NCBI GenBank assembly: GCA_024401225.1
Contig: JAKSLM010000024.1
Span: forward strand, 1-40,512
DNA from: Bacteroidaceae bacterium
GTDB lineage: Bacteria; Bacteroidota; Bacteroidia; Bacteroidales; Bacteroidaceae
Reading direction: 5' to 3'
DNA: 40,512 nt
A program made the translations under genes and the position numbers. The notes beneath the pieces were generated by a model, which saw only the letters and a list, made by a program, of their open reading frames with translations, searched no databases and was not told the origin of the DNA. Positions 1 to 9,776 of this stretch are shown here, one piece after another (the first letter of the stretch is position 1; each line of letters opens with the position of its first letter).

Positions 1-2764
1 GGTTCTTATTCCAATGATATACGAGGTGTGCCATCACGTAGTGAGGCAGCGAGCGATACCATGTTATAGTTCGACCTTGAGCATTTACAGCATACTGAGT
101 AGATGAAAGATTGTGAAGCAAATCGATTCCTTTAATGCTTGCGATGAACTTACCTTTGAGGAAAGGTTTGCTTATTGAGGCGTTTAAGATAAAATCGTCG
201 GTGTCAAGTTCTCTTGTACCATAACCACGGCGACTGTACATATTGGCATCGGCAGCGATTGTCACGTTTATGCTCGGAATGGTGTATGTGCCAGATAGTC
301 CATATTGATAATCAAATGCATTAAGATTATCGAAGTCGCGCATTCTACCTTCGGAATAACGCCAACGGAAGTCGGCTGTGGCACGGATATTCAGTTTGTT
401 CTTGTTGTATTGTATGTAGGCACCATCATGCAGGGCAAGTGTGTTAACGGTATTCTGATAGCTTTCCGTTTCTCCCGCGAGCATCGAGTGGTCAAGAGAG
501 TGATGGAAACTGGCATCTGAGATGTTCTGCCAAGAGAAATAGCGCTTCTCGCCTATGGTGTTTGATACCTGAAATTTAGCATCTGCTATGTACGCACCGC
601 TTACATTTACAGGTTTGTAGGTGTAGACTCCACTGACAGAATTGTATATAACTGACTGTGAGACATCTCTATGATGATAATTGAAGGAAGCAGATGCGTT
701 CCATTGCTTTTGGCTATGTTCGGTCTTATGTCCGTAAAGGGCTATCTCTGCATTGGTGCTTGCATGTCCTTTCAACCCTGGAGCACCAAGTTTCACGACA
801 AGAGGATTGCTATCATCACGAAAGTTTATCATGTCATAGATGTTTGCAGTGGTCTGCCTATGTTTTGAGCTGATACGTAGCTCGTGCTTTTTGCTTGTCT
901 TTCTCGAATATGAAAGCCAAGGGGTTACGAAGAGCGTTTTGTTTGTAGCTAGTGTGTCTATGGAACCCCGCTGATAGTCGAGGGAATGGTAGGTAAACGG
1001 TACTTGCACGCCAAACTCCCAGTTGCTGCTTGACTTCTTGTCTGGTTGAATATTGTTGTGGGTACTTATACTCATCTCAAACACATTCGTTACTGATCGA
1101 AACTTACTGTCATAGCTATTGCCCACATCGGTGATAGCATTCAACGCATCCAACTGAGAGGCAAGAAGCAATGTGTCGGGATGGTAAAGATAATCGTGAA
1201 TGGTACTGTATGATATATCTGTTTTGTTTTTTAACCTATACTGCAGTCTGTCGGTGATTTTTCCAGCATCGCTAAGCTCCAGTCCTCCCGATGTCAGTTT
1301 TTTGGCATAGTCGGTTGCATTGTTGCGCAGTTCTGACGTTGGGGAGACATTGTTTCGGGTGTCATAACGACTTGCTCCCTCAGACTTGTCGCTGCTATGC
1401 TCTGCATATACTACATAGGAGACACGCTTCTTCCATAAACTGAAATCACTCAGCAGCTCCATTTTGCCACTCCATGATGTACCTTCGCTCATGCCTGTAG
1501 TTCGCATTGAAGCTATGAGCGAATCATTCCACTGTTCGAATGTGGAATTAGAATTTCCGTTTCGCTTTCCATAACTGAAATCGGCAAAAATCATCATATA
1601 TTTAGGAGCGTACATTGTAAAGTCATTATGCAAGGCAAGTTTCCAATTGCTGGATTTGCCGATTCTCTCACTTATTGACAATGGGTTGCCACTAATGAGA
1701 AACTGTTCACGATTCTGTCGCATGTGTTGTTTTTCTGTTGATGAAACAAACTCAGTGCGGAATGTCTCTCCAATCATTTCGTCTTTAGACTGGTAATCCA
1801 TCTCCGACCTAACGCTTCGTGTTGTAATCATGGAACGCGGCGTGCGAGTAGGTGACCACGAATTGTTCTTTCCTATGTGTTGAGTCTCATTCACATTGTT
1901 AATATTGCCAAGAAGTGTGAAACGGGTACGATCGGTGAAACCGAGCCCAAATGCTCTGCCCAACCAGCGGTTATCTGTTCCGTATGCACCTTCTACATTT
2001 GCTATATAACCACGATTGTAGTCTTCCTTTAGAATTACATCCATCACATGCTCTTTCGATGGATTTTCAACTCCACGCACTTCATCAAGCTTATGCGTCT
2101 TGTCATATACCTTGATATGCTTTACCGTATAGTAAGGTAGATTCTCCATAAGTACCTGTTTGTTACCTCCAAAGAAAGTACGGGAACCAAGAAGGAGCTC
2201 ATCTATCTTCTTACCATTCACAAATATCTCGCCTTCATCGTTCATCGTTACTCCTGGCATCTGACGAATAAGGTCATCAAGCATTGAACCATCAGGCATA
2301 TTGAAGGCTGTGGCGTCATAGACGAGTGTATCTCCACGATAGAACATTTTTACTTTGGTTGCAGTCACTACCACATCTTTAAGTGATATGGTTCGTGACT
2401 TTCGCATTTTGATAAGTGGTACAACTACTTCTTTCTGTGTAATATCTGTCACAGATGCCTTTTGCCATACAACATCATATCCTTCCAGTTCTGCCTTTAT
2501 CAGATAATCGTGCTTAATGGCTTTGACAGGAGCATAATATGGAGCAATAATGATGTCTCCATTACCATCTTCAATTCTTTCCACATGGGCAGAATCCAAA
2601 ATACAAGTTGTACTGTCAGTCTCATACACGGATATTCTAGCGGCAAGTGGCTTTTTTTTGAAGTCATCTTGAACTTGGCCTACTAGAGTTATTGTTTGAC
2701 TATGCATTGCCAATGACGAACAAAATGCAAGCAGAAATAGCACATGGTAAAATGATTTCTCCAT
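1..2764 (-). CDS. Outer-membrane beta-barrel protein with carboxypeptidase-regulatory-like N-terminus (partial at window edge)
   Basis: The frame is open from the ATG at 2764 to the window edge, at least 921 codons, so the stop lies outside. I translated it directly. It has a signal peptide (about 1-22), then a regulatory-like beta domain (about 24-120). A TonB-plug-like segment follows, with the phrases DVVVTATKVKMFYRGDTLVY and LIRQMPGVTMNDEGEIFVNG, then a long barrel rich in aromatic beta strands. The last residues seen (LPHYVMAHLVYHWNKN) resemble the closing strand of this family, so only a few codons are probably missing. The family is the Bacteroidota outer-membrane beta-barrel group related to TonB-dependent receptors; its substrates are mostly unknown. 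It is divergent from the TPR/HTH regulator at 3022, which may control it. No SusD partner is seen inside the window, which argues against a classical glycan-uptake locus, though one could lie to the left. Confidence 0.85.
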   Translation of the reverse strand, partial: MEKSFYHVLFLLAFCSSLAMHSQTITLVGQVQDDFKKKPLAARISVYETDSTTCILDSAHVERIEDGNGDIIIAPYYAPVKAIKHDYLIKAELEGYDVVWQKASVTDITQKEVVVPLIKMRKSRTISLKDVVVTATKVKMFYRGDTLVYDATAFNMPDGSMLDDLIRQMPGVTMNDEGEIFVNGKKIDELLLGSRTFFGGNKQVLMENLPYYTVKHIKVYDKTHKLDEVRGVENPSKEHVMDVILKEDYNRGYIANVEGAYGTDNRWLGRAFGLGFTDRTRFTLLGNINNVNETQHIGKNNSWSPTRTPRSMITTRSVRSEMDYQSKDEMIGETFRTEFVSSTEKQHMRQNREQFLISGNPLSISERIGKSSNWKLALHNDFTMYAPKYMMIFADFSYGKRNGNSNSTFEQWNDSLIASMRTTGMSEGTSWSGKMELLSDFSLWKKRVSYVVYAEHSSDKSEGASRYDTRNNVSPTSELRNNATDYAKKLTSGGLELSDAGKITDRLQYRLKNKTDISYSTIHDYLYHPDTLLLASQLDALNAITDVGNSYDSKFRSVTNVFEMSISTHNNIQPDKKSSSNWEFGVQVPFTYHSLDYQRGSIDTLATNKTLFVTPWLSYSRKTSKKHELRISSKHRQTTANIYDMINFRDDSNPLVVKLGAPGLKGHASTNAEIALYGHKTEHSQKQWNASASFNYHHRDVSQSVIYNSVSGVYTYKPVNVSGAYIADAKFQVSNTIGEKRYFSWQNISDASFHHSLDHSMLAGETESYQNTVNTLALHDGAYIQYNKNKLNIRATADFRWRYSEGRMRDFDNLNAFDYQYGLSGTYTIPSINVTIAADANMYSRRGYGTRELDTDDFILNASISKPFLKGKFIASIKGIDLLHNLSSTQYAVNAQGRTITWYRSLPHYVMAHLVYHWNKN

Positions 2765-3021: not shown

Positions 3022-4494
3022 ATGAAGCATTTGACTCTCTTTATGTTTCTCGTCATCATCCTCTCAGCATGTACATCCAAGCATGAGGCGATGCTGCAGA
3101 AGATGGACGAACTGGACGCAATGGGCGACAACTACGATACCTTCCCGAACGACACAGTTGCACTTGATGTCGTTGCCTATATGGAAAGGTGCGGAACATC
3201 AGAAGAACGTGCCAAAGCATGGAAGATGCTTGCAAAGGTGTATCGCAGAAAGGGCTGGTACTTCTGGGAGGAGAATGCATTTAGCATGGCTGTGGGATGT
3301 GTGGATACTACCCAAGCTTTCGACACACTCAGTTTTGCACAGACACTCTTCGACTGGTCGCATTGCCTTGCACGTTCTCTGGATGGCTTGCAAAGTCAAG
3401 AGCAGGTGAGGCGTGCTGTACGCTTCGCACTTATGGCAGGCGACACGATTCATGCTATGCGCTACTATGGCGACATAGACTCTGACAGTGCCTATCATTA
3501 TCTATGGCATAAGGGGGAAAAAGCGTTGGCGATGGATGCGAGTATGCCGATGATTGACAATCTTATAAAAATTCATCATTGCGACTCTGCTGCCATGATG
3601 CTTGAAAGATACGACTCTGCTGCTAAGATGCTCGATAAATACAGTAAGTACAGTTCGTACAATCTTGATAGCCCTTACTCGTACGAGGCAAATCACTATT
3701 GGATGATGCGCGGTAAGTTGCACAAAGCAGAAGAACGATACGATTCTGCTATATATTATTATAAAAAAGTGGCAGAACTCGATTCCTTACATTGGGAGGA
3801 AGCAAGTTTGGCTGTGTGGGAAATTGCTGAATGTTTCCGTCGGTTAGGAATGGAAGATTCTGCCAAGTGCTATGAATGGGAGAATGTGAAGATCACAGAA
3901 TTTGGTTCATATCGCTTGATGGAAGACCGCTTCAAGTCACGATTCCGCGACTACCAGATTCAGCACGACAATCTGGATATGCGTGATGAGGCAGAGCGTC
4001 TGCACTTATGGATGCTGGGCGGCATATTCATGTTCGCTTTCATTGTGTTTTTCGGAGTTTATCGCTACATGAAGCTTCGCCAAGAGCATCAGGACACCTT
4101 GCAGCAGAACCATGAGTTTGTGGATATGCTGAAATCACTTAGGGAGAGAGTCAGCAATCCAATCCTTGACACTTCAATCGCCAAGCATTTTCACGAACTT
4201 TCAGCTCAAGATGCCCATCCTACAGAGGAGGAATGGAAGCAACTCTGTGATGAGGTAAATTCGCAGCATCCCAACCTCTTCCCTTGTATAGCAGAACATT
4301 ACGAACTCACCCCACATGAGCAGCGTCTAATAAGCCTCATTGCCATTAGCTGCACTCCGCTACAGATGTCCATCCTTCTCGTCTGCACCAAGAGCAACAT
4401 CAGCAACCTCCGTCGCCGTCTGTACAAGAGGATTGCGGGTACGGACGGCAGTGGAGCGGACCTAGACAAACTGGTAAACAACCTGTGCCAATAA
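3022..4494 (+). CDS. Membrane-anchored TPR-like protein with C-terminal helix-turn-helix (putative regulator)
   Basis: 490 residues. The N-terminus is a lipoprotein-type signal with lipobox LSAC (Cys17). Residues about 30-310 are helical and TPR-like (YYYKKVAELDSLHWEEASL and similar). One membrane segment lies at about 328-350 (LWMLGGIFMFAFIVFFGVYRY), followed by a short coiled stretch. A C-terminal region (about 425-485) resembles a LuxR-like HTH: the phrase LTPHEQRLISLIAI, then a recognition-helix-like SNISNLRRRLYKRI. Bacteroidota have many such TPR-membrane-HTH proteins, thought to link envelope signals to transcription without a kinase. Position suggests it controls the divergent outer-membrane protein through the GTTTAC cluster; that link is inference. 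An alternative view is a sensor whose HTH does not bind DNA. Confidence 0.75.
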   Translation: MKHLTLFMFLVIILSACTSKHEAMLQKMDELDAMGDNYDTFPNDTVALDVVAYMERCGTSEERAKAWKMLAKVYRRKGWYFWEENAFSMAVGCVDTTQAFDTLSFAQTLFDWSHCLARSLDGLQSQEQVRRAVRFALMAGDTIHAMRYYGDIDSDSAYHYLWHKGEKALAMDASMPMIDNLIKIHHCDSAAMMLERYDSAAKMLDKYSKYSSYNLDSPYSYEANHYWMMRGKLHKAEERYDSAIYYYKKVAELDSLHWEEASLAVWEIAECFRRLGMEDSAKCYEWENVKITEFGSYRLMEDRFKSRFRDYQIQHDNLDMRDEAERLHLWMLGGIFMFAFIVFFGVYRYMKLRQEHQDTLQQNHEFVDMLKSLRERVSNPILDTSIAKHFHELSAQDAHPTEEEWKQLCDEVNSQHPNLFPCIAEHYELTPHEQRLISLIAISCTPLQMSILLVCTKSNISNLRRRLYKRIAGTDGSGADLDKLVNNLCQ

Positions 4495-4520: not shown

Positions 4521-4680
4521 TGGGAGGAGAGAATTAGGATGTTGTAAACCAGCCTTCTCAATATACCCTTTCAAGAACATAGGTTCTGCAATGAGTGGGT
4601 TATGTGGTTGAGATTTGTGTGGTTCTTCATTATCACATTCCGAGAATCAGGTTTCTATGCCAACGCATCTATTTTCTCAT

Positions 4681-4722
4681 GTGTCCAAAATATTTACACT
4701 TTCGTGTCCAAAAATTTGACAC
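4681..4722. promoter_or_regulatory. Paired 19-bp palindromes, pair 1 (orphan)
   Basis: Site A at 4681-4699 has arms GTGTC and TACAC; site B at 4704-4722 has perfect arms GTGTC and GACAC. Both have 9-bp AT-rich centres and start 23 bp apart. The architecture matches the pairs at 4934 and 9735. No TAnnTTTG box lies at the 48-bp distance seen for those pairs, on either side, so this pair has no obvious promoter. Its distance to pair 2 is 253 bp, close to a whole number of helical turns, which would allow looping. Confidence 0.6.
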
Positions 4723-4750
4723 TCTTCAGCATGATGGTGCCGTAGGGCAT

Positions 4751-4785
4751 AAAAAATCCATGCCGAACTTCACAGTCCGGCATGG
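4751..4785 (-). terminator. Intrinsic terminator on the minus strand
   Basis: CCATGCCG (4758-4765) pairs with CGGCATGG (4778-4785) as an 8-bp stem with a 12-nt loop. On the minus strand the stem is followed by A and then six T residues (4756-4751). It is oriented to end a minus-strand transcript, yet no minus-strand protein gene lies just upstream. This is the main reason for proposing the small RNA. Confidence 0.6.
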
Positions 4786-4871
4786 AGCGCAAGTCTTCCG
4801 ATGAAGCTTGCTTAATATTAACTTTAACTTCAGAATCCAGTCTATGCATGGGATGCACGGGCATGAATTCG
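4751..4871 (-). ncRNA. Candidate small RNA, about 120 nt, divergent from the ABC transporter operon
   Basis: A minus-strand TATCTTTG box (4878-4885) predicts a start near 4871, and the intrinsic terminator at 4751-4785 ends the transcript. Just before the terminator there is a second hairpin-forming stretch of the form GCAAG-TTC-loop-GAA-CTTGC (about 4791-4815). The box lies exactly 48 bp from palindrome pair 2, the same distance as at the transporter and response-regulator promoters. The 65-codon frame crossing it (4694-4891) runs past the terminator and shows no family signature. No known RNA family was recognised, and expression is not proven. Confidence 0.5.
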
Positions 4872-4877
4872 TGTCTA

Positions 4878-4885
4878 CAAAGATA
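4878..4885 (-). promoter_or_regulatory. Candidate -7 box for the small RNA
   Basis: Read on the minus strand this is TATCTTTG. There are 48 bp (4886-4933) between it and the palindrome pair at 4934-4975. No TTTG is present at -33, as expected for an activator-dependent promoter. Confidence 0.5.
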
Positions 4886-4933: not shown

Positions 4934-4975
4934 GTGTCAAAAATTTTTACATTGATGTGTCTAATTTTTGGACAC
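4934..4975. promoter_or_regulatory. Paired 19-bp palindromes, pair 2 (between small RNA and ABC operon)
   Basis: The site at 4934-4952 is imperfect (GTGTC facing TACAT); the site at 4957-4975 has perfect GTGTC and GACAC arms. The pitch is 23 bp. The pair is placed symmetrically: 48 bp to the minus-strand -7 box at 4878-4885 and 48 bp to the plus-strand -7 box at 5024-5031. It probably binds the response regulator encoded at 9137-9658, because the same arrangement precedes that gene. Confidence 0.7.
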
Positions 4976-5023
4976 TTTTAGGGGAGTGGTACGAAAAAAA
5001 GATTGTTTTTATCGAAAAATCAC

Positions 5024-5031
5024 TATCTTTG
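5024..5031 (+). promoter_or_regulatory. -7 box of the ABC transporter operon
   Basis: TATCTTTG, 48 bp after palindrome pair 2 and 55 bp before the ATG at 5087. No TTTG is seen at -33 (the bases there are GATT), which fits a promoter that needs an upstream activator. Confidence 0.6.
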
Positions 5032-5086
5032 CAATGAGAATTAGTATAAGTTGTGTTAACGCTCCACTTGGAAGTGAAAAGTAAAA

Positions 5087-7597
5087 ATGGCACGAAAGAA
5101 CTTCGACATAAAGGTATACCACGTTGCGACGGTCATGGCTCTCAGCCTAGCCCTCGTAGTGTGGTATTTTCTTATGACTCAAGTTATGTATAGGCACAAC
5201 TACAACTACGACATCGCCGACAAGGAGAACGTGTACAGGGTGGAGGCAAGGATGAAGCCCCAACGAGAGGAGGTGAGAAAAGCAACGGAAGTGTTTGGCA
5301 AGATGTCGGCTCCACTGGCACAATGCCTGCGCAGACTGCCCTGCGTGGAAGCCTTGGTAGGCGTGAACGAGTCGCACATAGGACTTGCAAACGATGGATA
5401 CACGGAGATCTATTCATCGAGGACATCGATACAGGGATACGTGTACAATGCCATACCGCCCGATATGGAGATGCTGGGACTTACCATGGTGTGCGGAAGC
5501 CTCACCTTCATGGATGAGGGCATGGGTGGAGTGATAATACCTGAGTCGTATGCGCTGAAGCTGTTTGGCAGGGCAGACAGGATAAACGGCATGAAGATTG
5601 CATGGCAGATAGCCGGAAGTGACAAGGTACAGGTGGTAGGCGTATATAAGGATCTGGACGAGAACAGCGTGATACCTAATGGTGTGTATCACACATCGGC
5701 ACATCTGTTTGACTACTCATGGGGAATGAAGGAGTTCAACGTGTTTGTAAGGACCTCGCTCCCTGCATCCATCGGGATTGAGGGGACAGAGAGAACCAAC
5801 GACAGTGTTATCACCTCCATGATAGCCTCAACGATCAAGAAGGAACTGCTTGAGACATTTGCCGACGACTCATCATTTATAGCAAACTACAAGGACATCG
5901 AGTTTCGCGCCACAAGGGTGGCTAACGATGACAGGGCGCTTGAGACGACCAACTACCACATCTACTTCGTGTACCAGCTTGCAGCCATCCTCATTCTCAT
6001 CATAGCCCTTGTGGTCAGCTTCAACATCAGCATGAGTGAGGCACCCCTGCAGATGAAGACCATCAGTACGATGATGGTGCTCGGAGTGAGCAAGCGAGAG
6101 GTTCGACTACGCATATTATTAAGAAGTATCGTGCGCGCGTTGGTAGCTATGCTCATTGCCTTGCTCTTCGTTGTAGCCTTCAGTCACAGGCATTGGGCCA
6201 ACGAGATGTTCATGGCTCCTACAGCTGTCTACATCCCTTACAACCTACCGCTCCTGCCCTGGATGGCATGCATCGCATTGGCGATAGGCATGCTGTCGGG
6301 CATCTACCCTGCCCTATATGTCACTCGTCATCCGCTCACAATGGCCATCCGTGGACGATTTGCCTTGTCCCGAAGTGGACGCGCCATGCGTAACGTCATG
6401 CTCGCGATGCAGTTCACACTCAGCTTTGCCACAACGATGTACTTCGCTGTGGTGCTGCTGCAGAACAGGCATCTGCACAATTACGATTACGGATTCGACA
6501 AGGACAACCTCCTGTATGCAAAGGAGATCATACACCCCGACTTCGAGCACGTGCTATGGAATATGGCAGGAATCGGGCCTATAATGATAGACTCAATAGA
6601 ACAGCAGATACGTGCCGACAAGGATGTGGATGGAATGTGCAGGACAGACTTAGTGCCTTTGGTGCATTGCACACGCGACAGGGTGTATCACATGGATTCA
6701 CATTCGGGAGAAATTCAAATGATAGAGTACCTGTATGGCATAGTGGACAAAGATTTCTTCTCCACTCTGCGCATCGGCGTGAATCCCAATGTCATTGCGA
6801 TACCGGACGGAGGATCGGTCTATGTTATATCGCCAGAGATGAGAAAGATGCTGCAAAATGAAGATGCCACACCCGTAGTAACGGAAGACAATTACATCAC
6901 ATTCCGTGAAGGCAGACTCAATGTGGGTGGCGTGGTAAATAGGCTTACATCTGTATTCCCTGACGCGAGGGTACGACATCTCGACAAACTGTTGTTTGTT
7001 GTTCATGCAAAAGACCACTATAGCCCTTACATCATGGTACACTTGCGTCCTGGGGCTGACAAGCGTGCTGTGGCACAGCGTCTGTACAACATACGTAAGA
7101 GATGCCTGAAGAAGTATGAGAAGGACTATACCGACAAGACATATACTGACGAAATGTACAGGTTCAGCAGCTATGAGCAGGAATTCAACAACACCTACAA
7201 GGTGCAGATGCGGTTCGAACTGCCTATGTTCTTCCTATCCATCTGCTGCATAGCCATCACCCTCATGGGATTGGTGGGCGTCACGATGATAGAGCGCAGG
7301 TACATGCAGCGCAGCACAGCCATACGTCGTGTGCTTGGTACCACGACCATGGAACTGATGCTGATGCAGATGCGCAAGTACGGGTGGATGCTCACAGGCT
7401 GTGCCATGGTCGGCATGCCAGCAGGCTATTGGCTCTCAAAACATTGGATAGCCACCTTCGTACTACAGACGGATGTCCCTCTGTGGCTTCCACTCCTTGT
7501 GTTCGTCCTTATCTCTGTCCTCGTCCTCATGCTGGTGGTGGTACAGAACGTGATAAATGTAAACAAAGACCTGACTTTAGCGATAAAAACAGAATGA
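5087..7597 (+). CDS. FtsX/MacB-like ABC transporter permease
   Basis: 836 residues. There is an N-terminal membrane segment (about 14-32), a large periplasmic MacB-like domain, three or four membrane segments at about 285-450 and a second periplasmic domain. A final FtsX core at about 710-825 contains the cytoplasmic phrase ERRYMQRSTAIRRVLGTT, typical of the FtsX coupling region. This is the two-FtsX-domain form common in Bacteroidota. Such permeases use ATP-driven conformational change for efflux or lipoprotein/peptide handling rather than classical import. Its stop overlaps the ATPase start by 4 bp, so the two are translationally coupled. The promoter carries palindrome pair 2, so it is likely controlled by the convergent two-component system. 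The substrate cannot be told from sequence. Confidence 0.85.
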   Translation: MARKNFDIKVYHVATVMALSLALVVWYFLMTQVMYRHNYNYDIADKENVYRVEARMKPQREEVRKATEVFGKMSAPLAQCLRRLPCVEALVGVNESHIGLANDGYTEIYSSRTSIQGYVYNAIPPDMEMLGLTMVCGSLTFMDEGMGGVIIPESYALKLFGRADRINGMKIAWQIAGSDKVQVVGVYKDLDENSVIPNGVYHTSAHLFDYSWGMKEFNVFVRTSLPASIGIEGTERTNDSVITSMIASTIKKELLETFADDSSFIANYKDIEFRATRVANDDRALETTNYHIYFVYQLAAILILIIALVVSFNISMSEAPLQMKTISTMMVLGVSKREVRLRILLRSIVRALVAMLIALLFVVAFSHRHWANEMFMAPTAVYIPYNLPLLPWMACIALAIGMLSGIYPALYVTRHPLTMAIRGRFALSRSGRAMRNVMLAMQFTLSFATTMYFAVVLLQNRHLHNYDYGFDKDNLLYAKEIIHPDFEHVLWNMAGIGPIMIDSIEQQIRADKDVDGMCRTDLVPLVHCTRDRVYHMDSHSGEIQMIEYLYGIVDKDFFSTLRIGVNPNVIAIPDGGSVYVISPEMRKMLQNEDATPVVTEDNYITFREGRLNVGGVVNRLTSVFPDARVRHLDKLLFVVHAKDHYSPYIMVHLRPGADKRAVAQRLYNIRKRCLKKYEKDYTDKTYTDEMYRFSSYEQEFNNTYKVQMRFELPMFFLSICCIAITLMGLVGVTMIERRYMQRSTAIRRVLGTTTMELMLMQMRKYGWMLTGCAMVGMPAGYWLSKHWIATFVLQTDVPLWLPLLVFVLISVLVLMLVVVQNVINVNKDLTLAIKTE

Positions 7598-8292
7598 TAA
7601 CATTAGAAAACATATCAAAGGACTTCCCTACTACGGCTTGTCTTCGCAACGTGAACCTCACCGTTGAGGATGGTGAGTTTCTCTGCATCATGGGACCTTC
7701 CGGATCGGGCAAGACTACGCTTCTCAATATCATAGGTGCACTCGAACCTCCTACCGAGGGGCGATGCATCATCAATGGTACGGACATCTATGCCATGACT
7801 GACAGCGCAAGAACCATGTACCGACGTGAGCACTTGGGATTCATTTTCCAGGCGTTCAACCTCATCGATGAGATGACCGTATTTGAGAATGTGGAACTGC
7901 CATTGAAGCTCAAGGGACTGCCTGCCAACGAACGCCGCAGCAGGGTAAAGGATATGCTGGCACGTCTCGGCATAAGCCATCGTGCCAAGATGTACCCTAA
8001 TGAGCTGTCGGGTGGTCAGCAACAGCGTGTAGCCATAGCCCGTGCCGTCATCAGTTTTTACTCACCAGCAAGCGACTCCCTCACCAACAGGGATACTCGG
8101 GGCAAGTCGCTCATCCTTGCCGACGAACCTACCGGCAATCTCGACTCAAAGCAGGGTAATGAGGTAATGCACCTACTCACCGAACTGCATCGTGAGACGG
8201 GTGCTACGATAGTCATGGTCACGCACAATCATCGCGACGCTGACTATGCGGACCGAATAGTAGAATTGTTTGACGGAAGGGTGATCAAATAA
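7594..8292 (+). CDS. MacB-type ABC transporter ATP-binding protein
   Basis: 232 residues, starting at the ATG inside the ATGA overlap with the permease stop; a longer in-frame start exists but would sit within the permease gene. Walker A is GPSGSGKTT (34-42), the signature LSGGQQQ lies at 138-144 and Walker B is LILADEP (173-179), followed by the D-loop and a switch histidine in MVTHNH. The family is the MacB/LolD-like ATPases that energise FtsX-fold permeases. Odd feature: residues about 153-172, between signature helix and Walker B, hold roughly 14 residues more than usual (ISFYSPASDSLTNRDTRGKS). The stop overlaps the end of the convergent kinase gene by 8 bp, so the two operons share their 3' ends. 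Confidence 0.9.
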   Translation: MITLENISKDFPTTACLRNVNLTVEDGEFLCIMGPSGSGKTTLLNIIGALEPPTEGRCIINGTDIYAMTDSARTMYRREHLGFIFQAFNLIDEMTVFENVELPLKLKGLPANERRSRVKDMLARLGISHRAKMYPNELSGGQQQRVAIARAVISFYSPASDSLTNRDTRGKSLILADEPTGNLDSKQGNEVMHLLTELHRETGATIVMVTHNHRDADYADRIVELFDGRVIK

Positions 8293-9085
8293 TCTCCATC
8301 TCAAAGCTGACATTCCAGCCATTGGTTCCCGTAGGGAGCAAGGTGATCGAGCCACCACTTATCTTCATAATCTGACGGCATAGGCTCAACCCTATGCCGT
8401 TGCCTGTCTTCTTAGTGGTGAAGAAAGGCACGAAGATATCTTTCTGCTCTGCCTCAGGAATAGGACTGCCATCGTTGCTGACTATGATGTGGGTGCTGCC
8501 ATCGTTGTACTTGTAGGCAGAAAGGTTGATGTGTGTGGCATGCGCCTCGATGGCATTCTTGACAAGGTTCATGAATAGCTGACGCATTAGTCCCGGATCG
8601 GCATGGATGATGATATCCGAAGGCTGGATGTGAGACGTCAGATGCACATCTGCATCCACCATCGAGGATATGCCGGCAAAGAGTTCGTCAACAATGATGT
8701 CCTCGGGCTGCGGGCGCTGCAACGAGGAGAACTTGCGATAGCTGTCGACAAACGAACGCAATCCCTCGCTCGTGTCATGGATGGCCTTGATACCCTCGAA
8801 GTATTCCGACTTCTGGATGGCAGGCTCCTTCATGAAGGTGTCCGACAGCGACACGATAGGGGCCAGCGAATTCATGATCTCATGAGTCAGGATGCGGGTC
8901 AGCTTCTCCCACGATGCCATCTCAATGTCCTGACGCTGTTCCTGCATTATCTCCATCATACGGTTGATGGTAGCTCGCGCAGCACGTTCGCCTGGTGTCA
9001 TAAGTCCATTCTCCGAAATACGGAAGGACAGGTCATCGTTCTTGATGGCTTCGATTATGAGGTCGTATTTGTCGGATGTGAACAT
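8285..9085 (-). CDS. Short soluble sensor histidine kinase
   Basis: 266 residues. H box LTHEIMNSLAPI with His68, N box MNLVKNAIEA, G boxes VSNDGSPIPE and KKTGNGIGLSLC. Only about 55 residues precede the dimerisation helix, and no membrane segment or clear PAS domain is present. The related Bacteroidota kinases that sit beside NtrC-type regulators usually carry N-terminal transmembrane and PAS/HAMP regions. An in-frame stop lies about 20 bp upstream of the ATG, so the N-terminus is not simply mis-called. The partner is the response regulator just upstream (51 bp away). No Shine-Dalgarno site is seen; the spacer is made of heptad repeats. The signal must come from the cytoplasm or through a partner protein. 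Confidence 0.85.
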   Translation of the reverse strand: MFTSDKYDLIIEAIKNDDLSFRISENGLMTPGERAARATINRMMEIMQEQRQDIEMASWEKLTRILTHEIMNSLAPIVSLSDTFMKEPAIQKSEYFEGIKAIHDTSEGLRSFVDSYRKFSSLQRPQPEDIIVDELFAGISSMVDADVHLTSHIQPSDIIIHADPGLMRQLFMNLVKNAIEAHATHINLSAYKYNDGSTHIIVSNDGSPIPEAEQKDIFVPFFTTKKTGNGIGLSLCRQIMKISGGSITLLPTGTNGWNVSFEMEII

Positions 9086-9088
9086 CGA

Positions 9089-9130
9089 GGGAGAGTTAAG
9101 AGGTTAGAGGGGAGAGGTTAAAGGGGAGAG
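9089..9130. repeat. Purine-rich heptad repeat between response regulator and kinase genes
   Basis: Six 7-bp units on the plus strand: GGGAGAG, TTAAGAG, GTTAGAG, GGGAGAG, GTTAAAG, GGGAGAG. They fill most of the 51-bp gap between the two genes. The kinase start therefore has a pyrimidine-rich leader without a ribosome binding site. Confidence 0.6.
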
Positions 9131-9136
9131 GTGGGG

Positions 9137-9658
9137 TTACCTGATACTTTTCAACTTGTTGTATAGTGTCTGGCGACTGATGCCCAGTAGATCGGCAGCA
9201 AGTCGGAGGTTGCCGTTGCACTTATCGACGGCTGCACGGATATGCTCGTCCTCCACCTCGGCAAGAGTGCGTATGTCGTTCTGGCGATCAATGGCTGCTG
9301 TAAGGGTAAAGACAAGTTTATCGTTGTCCCAGGGTTTTACGACAAAGTCGGATGCACCCTGCTTCAAGGCTCTTACCGCCAGTTCGATGTCGGCGTATGC
9401 CGTGAAGAGTACCACCGGCACCTCGGGGTGCAGTTGCTTTATCTTTTCCAACCAAAACAGACCTTCGCCGCCCGTGTTCAGACCTAACGCAAAGTTCATG
9501 TCGAGCAGCACAACCGACACAGTATCCTGGTTCATGACCTGAGGGATGCTCTCGGGCGAGGCCAATGTCAGCACCTGCTCAAATGTCTTCTTCAGAAGAT
9601 ATTTCAGCGAGATCAAAACTTCTTTGTTGTCATCAACAACCAATACCGTACTATACAT
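9137..9658 (-). CDS. Response regulator, receiver plus Fis-type HTH, no AAA+ domain
   Basis: 173 residues from the ATG at 9658, chosen because AGGAAG lies 7 bases upstream and the product then opens with the receiver strand STVLVVDD. An upstream frame extension to 9742 would overlap the palindromes and is unlikely. Receiver: Asp9/Asp10, phosphoacceptor Asp53, the Thr of LFTAY and the Lys of VVKPW. The C-terminal HTH (about 128-173) is Fis/NtrC-like (LRLAADLLGISRQTLYNKL). NtrC-family regulators have a central AAA+ sigma-54 domain; here it is absent, as in the PrrA/ActR class. It probably binds the GTGTC-N9-GACAC pairs and acts on TAnnTTTG promoters, including its own. Confidence 0.9.
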   Translation of the reverse strand: MYSTVLVVDDNKEVLISLKYLLKKTFEQVLTLASPESIPQVMNQDTVSVVLLDMNFALGLNTGGEGLFWLEKIKQLHPEVPVVLFTAYADIELAVRALKQGASDFVVKPWDNDKLVFTLTAAIDRQNDIRTLAEVEDEHIRAAVDKCNGNLRLAADLLGISRQTLYNKLKSIR

Positions 9659-9678
9659 GTTGCTTCCTGTTTTTTTTG

Positions 9679-9686
9679 CAAATATA
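9679..9686 (-). promoter_or_regulatory. -7 box of the response regulator-kinase operon
   Basis: TATATTTG on the minus strand, 20 bp before the ATG at 9658. Exactly 48 bp (9687-9734) separate it from palindrome pair 3. The -33 position reads TGGA, not TTTG. Confidence 0.6.
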
Positions 9687-9734
9687 AGGAGAAATGCCGA
9701 GACCATCCATATATTTTGCAACATATAATGCAAA

Positions 9735-9776
9735 GTGTCCAAATTTTAGACACATGTGTGTCTTATTTTTGGACAC
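9735..9776. promoter_or_regulatory. Paired 19-bp palindromes, pair 3 (response regulator promoter)
   Basis: Two perfect GTGTC-N9-GACAC sites at 9735-9753 and 9758-9776, pitch 23 bp. They lie between the DUF3108 stop and the response regulator promoter. This is the cleanest of the three pairs and points to autoregulation. Confidence 0.7.

Follow-up and report, generated by a model that had tools for sequence, protein, structure and literature searches.

The locus and its paired palindromes

The 40,512-nucleotide stretch of DNA analysed here (the window; contig C23, GenBank JAKSLM010000024.1, of a Bacteroidaceae bacterium whose 3.0-Mb assembly, GCA_024401225.1, comprises 105 contigs and is 84% complete) carries a transporter operon, a regulatory operon that converges on it and tandem pairs of palindromes that we predict to be binding sites of the locus's own response regulator. 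The transporter operon (5087-8292, plus strand) encodes an FtsX-type permease of 836 amino acids (aa) (5087..7597, +; PF02687 in two stretches) and a 232-aa ATPase of an ATP-binding cassette (ABC) transporter (7594..8292, +; PF00005) of MacB/LolD/DarD-like type, the top NCBIfam model of which, DarD, scores 232 bits, under its cut-off of 375. The regulatory operon runs from 9658 to 8285 on the minus strand. Its 266-aa histidine kinase (8285..9085, −) matches only ATPase-domain models in Pfam (PF02518 and PF13589), with no sensor domain recognised; control of the kinase by the co-regulated transporter is a possible signal route. The 173-aa response regulator (9137..9658, −) combines a receiver domain (REC; PF00072, E = 5e-20) with a Fis-type helix-turn-helix (HTH; PF02954, E = 9e-13), and Pfam finds no AAA+ sigma-54 activation domain (PF00158) in it. 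Its domains and its clade make it the proposed binder of the palindromes.

All six palindromes, 19-bp GTGTC-N9-GACAC sites beginning at 4681, 4704, 4934, 4957, 9735 and 9758, lie where a preliminary description of this DNA had placed them, and the 23-bp pitch it had given is borne out in each of the three pairs. The motif extends further than that description had it, to TGTCYAA-N3-TTRGACA, and 23 bp correspond to about 2.2 helical turns, not to the two turns proposed. Pair 2 (4934..4975; two mismatches at 4934 and none at 4957) is a putative twin operator for two divergent promoters: exactly 48 bp to either side lies the TAnnTTTG box TATCTTTG, at 5024..5031 (+) for the permease-ATPase operon and at 4878..4885 (−) for a minus-strand transcript. 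Pair 3 (9735..9776, −; 19-mers at 9735 and 9758 without mismatches) is likewise exactly 48 bp from a box, TATATTTG (9679..9686, −), that belongs to the regulator-kinase operon, which would thus be autoregulated. Pair 1 (4681..4722, −; 19-mers at 4681-4699 and 4704-4722, with one and no mismatches) has no TAnnTTTG box to either side, its minus-strand 48-bp position being taken by the degenerate sequence TAATGAAG (4625..4632, −). TAnnTTTG is described as the −7 box consensus of housekeeping promoters in Bacteroidota (PMC7366714), positioned at −12 to −5 (PMC9723704), and all three window promoters match it.

The occurrence of pairs is confirmed as lying far above chance. At up to three mismatches, a pattern that replaced a zero-mismatch one, the host assembly contains four pairs, three of them in the window, against none for a backwards control motif; boxes at gaps of 47-49 bp number 51 across loci, against about 0.6 expected. 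Single sites are not enriched, either in the window (22 found versus 19.8 expected at up to two mismatches) or in the host assembly (65 versus 82 for the backwards control at one mismatch), so they are not usable as evidence. The fourth host pair is on contig C103 (L051:812-853), 48 bp from TAACTTTG, and is followed by a GLPGLI gene (TIGR01200) and then an 882-aa gene.

Distribution of the pairs and of the regulators

In 45 genomes of the genus, the window regulator's clade in a tree of 100 regulators (hereafter regulator A) is represented in eight; matches of some kind, at E 1e-20, occur in 25, and full-length regulators make up many of these. Pairs with up to three mismatches were found at 28 places in 13 of the 45 genomes, compared with five places for the backwards control. 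They were present in 8 of 8 genomes with regulator A and in 5 of 37 without it (Fisher P = 6e-6). Seven places (two each in G011 and G026 and one each in G017, G019 and G035) were set aside by eye as repeats or for their dissimilar, GC-richer spacers, and none of the six of these that were checked had a TAnnTTTG box within 120 bp. With such poor matches removed, the contrast sharpened to 8 of 8 versus 1 of 37 (Fisher P = 4e-8). Extended single sites with at most one mismatch followed the same distribution, with 35 places in the regulator A genomes and G003 plus one in G040 (control, 8).

Among the 21 pairs analysed (three in the window, one on C103 and 17 in relatives), 20 had a box at 47 or 48 bp. 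Downstream genes included the regulator operon, FtsX permeases, open frames of 921-993 aa, and GLPGLI, DUF4837, TonB_C and family-less proteins. Genomes G007 and G043 have a counterpart of pair 3 at the same place, with a box 47 bp away on the regulator side; G025 also has a pair ahead of the regulator, although there the box at 48 bp points to the divergent gene. Some promoters depart from the twin arrangement. The FtsX promoter of G007 and G043 has a single site with a box at 48 bp, and in G019 a box lies 47 bp from one lone site and 70 bp (47 + 23) from each of two copies of another. The proximal position therefore appears invariant, with lone distal sites staying in register. Further boxes recur at 70/71 bp, that is, 47/48 bp plus the 23-bp pitch, in L099, L121, L123, L129, L133, L145, L157, L160, L163 and L164; the L107-L126 group has others at 7/8 bp. 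The preliminary description had proposed a small regulon of paired sites at a fixed promoter distance; the scan of the host and its relatives upholds it, with pairs recurring at homologous operons. Its choice of the local response regulator as binder is consistent with the co-occurrence of motif and regulator.

Many short regulators without GTGTC pairs are accompanied instead by TGTATGA-N3-TCATACA pairs, with the same 23-bp pitch and a distance of 47-48 bp in a search conditioned on the box. A box-blind scan of whole genomes detected these in 8 of the 45, with none for the backwards control. They occur in 7 of 7 genomes with a paralogous regulator (C) and 1 of 38 without it, and a box lies at 48-49 bp in 15 of 16 pairs examined without regard to the box (L188-L203, out of 22 places counted). 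Three genomes with A and without C (G007, G043 and G013) lack the C motif, and two with C and without A (G002 and G009) lack the A motif. The window's genome encodes both, with regulator C on contig C79, and one half-site of its C-type pair reads TGTCTAA. Hybrid operators of TGTCTAA and TGTATGA half-sites are common in L107-L127 (for example, L117:2946), as if half-site changes linked the two specificities. At seven places in G002 (contigs C29, C40 and C91) and G001 (C28), represented by L188, L196 and L201, the C-type twin operator is the same over 40 bp, down to its degenerate second half; a mobile element or repeated gene that brings its own operator could perhaps account for this. A third short subclade, B (L060-L063), stands beside A and C in G019, G021, G025 and G027.

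Promoter class and regulator architecture

We extended the comparison to a family sample from named genomes, the best 80 loci among the matches listed, of which 49 (L104-L151 and L179) have a regulator that is 171-189 aa long or a fragment, one (L164) a regulator of 201 aa and 30 a full-length or truncated full-length regulator. Bacteroides fluxus is an example of a species with the full-length form. A promoter-blind scan, allowing pitches of 18-29 bp, covered 111 loci (1.47 Mb); L104, a duplicate of L061 with the same place of match, was dropped. The short class comprises 80 loci, nearly all from short-regulator genomes and including the paralogue loci and G003, and the long class 30. The backwards motif gave no pairs at the same threshold and one to three at lower thresholds.

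The two classes share half-sites and differ in promoter type. The short class yielded 50 pairs in 43 loci, all 50 with a pitch of 23 bp, and 48 of them with a TAnnTTTG box at 47-49 bp, which again bears out the constancy of the distance; L093 and L103 (from G007 and G043), identical over 162 bp (the pair plus 60 bp on each side), both count among the 50. No sigma-54 site (at least 10 of 12 positions) lies within 150 bp of any of the 50, the three window pairs included. By contrast, the long class, whose regulators are of REC-AAA+-Fis architecture, yielded 15 pairs in 14 loci with a pitch of 21 (eight), 22 (six) or 23 bp (one); 13 of the 15 have a sigma-54 site at 51-55 bp, and the remaining two score 9 at 54 bp. 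A pitch-21 scan of ten long-regulator genomes, which overlaps the long-class loci and includes several identical places, found seven pairs in six genomes, all with a sigma-54 site at 51-54 bp (one at 9 of 12). A pitch-22 scan of eight genomes (that of L164 and seven with long regulators) found eight pairs in six, adding a second Phocaeicola coprocola target with a sigma-54 site at 53 bp. All 30 long regulators carry GAFTDA, GSFTDA or GSFTNA in place of GAFTGA, the sigma-54 contact loop, and all 30 have a Walker A motif, GENG(T/I)GK; NorR with the same G-to-D change is reported to remain an activator (PMC2941729). In three long loci (L155, L158 and L168), TATTTTTG at 48 bp was considered as a sign of a promoter switch and rejected, as it is the T run of TTTTTGGCGCG, a sigma-54 −24 element; these loci are not counted as switched.

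None of the three window promoters has TTTG near −33, as the preliminary description had noted, although this is not a trait of the regulon as a whole. In the wider set of 46 distinct promoters, TTG at a spacing of 20 bp is found in 18 and TTTG in 7, compared with 19.5% and 11.2%, respectively, of 251 other boxes. The −33 element thus appears weak rather than absent.

A tree of 100 regulators, built with a quick method and omitting a fragment (L151), a truncated sequence (L154) and a near copy of L157 (L160), places 66 of 67 short regulators in one clade (Shimodaira-Hasegawa-like approximate likelihood ratio test, 99), beside long regulators (91) and nested among them. The best reading of this topology is that the short regulators arose by loss of the AAA+ domain from a REC-AAA+-Fis ancestor, since the gain of a homologous AAA+ domain between receiver and HTH is implausible. 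The 67th short regulator, L164, falls outside this clade, tentatively placed on a long branch. Its receiver scores 181 bits against long regulators and at most 137 against short ones, and its HTH 74 versus at most 57.5 bits; because both domains match long regulators best, a second, independent loss is the likelier origin. We treat this second loss as possible and not as demonstrated, given that forcing all short regulators together costs 2.3 log units (approximately unbiased (AU) test, P = 0.44). The twin site of L164 has TATCTTTG at 71 bp toward an FtsX-like gene and at 70 bp toward the regulator, with no sigma-54 element within 150 bp. Genes that by eye resemble this FtsX-like gene are under sigma-54 in L152, L156 and L159. 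TolC-like genes, too, are found under both classes, with sigma-54 sites in L161-L163, L166, L171 and L173 and boxes for the housekeeping sigma factor, sigma-ABfr, in, for example, L107, L117 and L124 (assigned to the OEP family by model for L117 and by the start of the sequence for the others).

Together, the promoter classes and the tree are best read as a regulon that moved from sigma-54 to the housekeeping sigma factor as its regulator lost the AAA+ domain, with the twin operators retained. Loss of sigma-54 itself is not the cause, since rpoN is kept in 43 of the 45 genus genomes, the window's genome included. Within the main clade the two kinds of element share a register, the T of the −24 TGG lying at 51-55 bp and the last T of the box's TTTG at 53-55 bp. 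From this we infer, tentatively and at slightly less than even odds, that the switch took place in situ, −24 TGG becoming −7 TTTG beside unchanged operators, with L164 perhaps a second independent loss whose promoters changed class likewise and settled on a register of 70/71 bp; L164 itself shows no conversion of this kind. This change of sigma class with AAA+ loss goes beyond the preliminary description.

The geometry of the sites, their co-occurrence with the regulator, the agreement of promoter type with regulator type and the tree lead us to a proposal that we regard as very probably right as a whole: a REC-Fis regulator acting through twin sites on sigma-ABfr promoters and descended from a sigma-54 activator. 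The adjacent kinase would phosphorylate the regulator (9137-9658), two dimers of which would occupy the two palindromes of a pair and activate promoters with a −7 box beginning 48 bp (47-49 bp) downstream. A box at −12 to −5 would put the dyads near −70 and −93. Activators bound upstream in this region usually touch the alpha subunit of RNA polymerase, a contact that the regulator may also make. In the host, the predicted targets are the regulator-kinase operon itself, the permease-ATPase operon and the GLPGLI operon on C103. The ancestor, an NtrC-type REC-AAA+-Fis protein, would have used the same twin sites to act on promoters of the sigma-54 class; as AAA+ was lost, a sigma-ABfr promoter would have taken the place of the sigma-54 core promoter, in the main lineage with the −7 TTTG where the −24 TGG had stood.

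Several observations weigh against this proposal. At the threshold used, only 43 of the 80 short-class and 14 of the 30 long loci hold a pair, and 2 of the 50 short-class pairs (window pair 1 and L111:7904) lack a box at 47-49 bp. The zero-mismatch pattern had given four places in only 3 of 12 genomes, and the backwards controls are non-zero genus-wide (5 versus 28 pairs and 8 versus 35 single sites). G003, with an assembly 74% complete, has a pair and no regulator hit, as G001 does for the paralogue-type pair, and G040 has one lone site, judged to be chance, with no box. For the paralogue, 1 of the 16 pairs (L201) likewise has none at this distance from it, and the L188 pair has a sigma-54-like site (11 of 12) 91 bp away on its other side. 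Subclade B, which has no assigned motif, could share the sites in its four genomes. A recognition-helix residue (in LYNK) correlates with the motif and is not sufficient for it, pairs occurring in 30 of 46 short rows with N and in none of 20 with A, K, R or S, in a tally conditioned on the box. In the tree, support for the outgroup branch is weak (67), and the AU test does not reject a single AAA+ loss that includes L164.

Of the other explanations for the pairs, the one that fares best, while still improbable, is that the regulator binds them and represses, or activates or represses according to the distance of the box. Some pairs do carry a further box on their other side, at 7/8 bp (eight, in short-class loci) or 31 bp (four long loci), that bound protein would cover or crowd. 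Against this, the principal boxes keep a fixed 47-49 bp, which would place the dyads near −70 and −93 with no overlap of the core promoter, and homologous sites serve sigma-54 promoters, which are known to require an activator. We consider it very unlikely that the pairs are operators of another DNA-binding protein, such as a repressor or nucleoid protein, that happen to lie near the regulator operon. Pairs are indeed also found away from the regulator's contig (on C103 and on 12 contigs of relatives), and binding by the regulator is itself predicted from sequence, but chance proximity sits poorly with the co-occurrence of pairs and regulator A (with or without filtering), with a paralogue that tracks an altered motif at the same geometry and with the flanking of the relatives' regulator operon by pairs. 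The least probable explanation, that the 48-bp spacing was inherited from one duplicated promoter segment and not selected, could draw on the common flanks of pair 1 and the C103 pair and on the identity of L093 and L103, but 46 of 51 promoters mutually differ at more than 12 of 56 positions of spacer and box, the targets are unrelated (TolC-like, TonB_C, DUF4837, GLPGLI and FtsX) and lone or distal sites retain the register.

The proposed activator resembles several known systems without coinciding with any. It shares with NtrC-type regulators, by descent, the receiver and Fis-type HTH, as well as twin upstream palindromes and an adjacent kinase, but lacks AAA+, and its promoters are of TAnnTTTG type with a −24/−12 element in 0 of 50 pairs. 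The redox regulators ActR, PrrA and RegA, which act on sigma-70 promoters, have the same layout, REC and Fis HTH without AAA+; the window regulator, however, scores 59.1 bits against NF033791, below the cut-off of 250, and the tree contains no PrrA or RegA. Enhancer-binding proteins that act on sigma-70 promoters, among them NtrC of Rhodobacter capsulatus and Caulobacter and VspR of Vibrio, are likewise described as NtrC-type proteins that went from sigma-54 to a housekeeping sigma factor (PMC10274813). According to the same description, these lack the GAFTGA loop of AAA+, whereas the window regulator lacks the whole domain, and its promoter history is legible in relatives. Sigma-54 control has been predicted for FtsX-type and ABC antimicrobial-peptide permeases of Bacteroidia (PMC12316311), in agreement with the full-length loci here; neither the regulator nor its twin operator or sigma switch figures in the part of that report dealing with these permeases. 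A search of the open literature, with subscription journals mostly outside it, yielded no description of the regulator, of its motif or of this geometry. In Bacteroidota, promoters that depend on an activator seem, to our knowledge, to have been little mapped.

The rule of twin palindromes at a pitch of 23 bp, 48 bp from TAnnTTTG, predicts targets for this regulator family genome by genome, and at least two specificities coexist within one genome. The family would offer a legible case of a regulon leaving sigma-54, in which similar efflux genes allow a direct comparison of ancestral-type with derived promoters, and suggests a route by which a whole regulon of gut bacteria may change its mode of activation while its operators are kept at a fixed distance from the promoter.

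Pair 1 and the predicted minus-strand transcript

Both 19-mers of window pair 1 are the exact reverse complement of those of the C103 pair, and the flanks align by eye; at the position of the box, TAATGAAG in the window faces TAACTTTG on C103. Pair 1 thus looks like a dead promoter of a GLPGLI operon with a decayed operator. A 921-aa open frame that runs off the window (1..2764, −; 2764-1) is 52% identical over 923 columns to the 929-aa gene that ends a GLPGLI operon of G043, the promoter of which has a box 48 bp from a pair. Between this frame and pair 1 lies a 490-aa gene (3022-4494, +) with a weak tetratricopeptide repeat match. Because pair 1 reads as a dead GLPGLI promoter, the 921-aa frame is homologous to the end of such an operon and the 490-aa gene lies between, the minus-strand promoter of pair 2 (box at 4878) is probably orphaned.

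The preliminary description had taken this box for the promoter of a small RNA. Its predicted product, of about 115 nucleotides, would end at a strong terminator-like hairpin with a T run (4751..4786, −), and the fold of 4748-4872 is stable (z-score −4.86), features that, together with the box at 48 bp, would suit a regulatory small RNA of the regulon. We nevertheless find that identification doubtful: beyond a 35-bp hairpin piece present in three genomes, the sequence downstream of the box is absent from the other 44 genomes of the genus, no Rfam family reaches its gathering score in the window, and the position upstream of a frame whose homologue ends a pair-driven GLPGLI operon fits a broken operon. 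A short inverted element resembling TGCCGTAGGGCA lies near the GLPGLI promoters in both orientations, at about 4733-4746 in the window and about 426-440 and 785-795 in L051.

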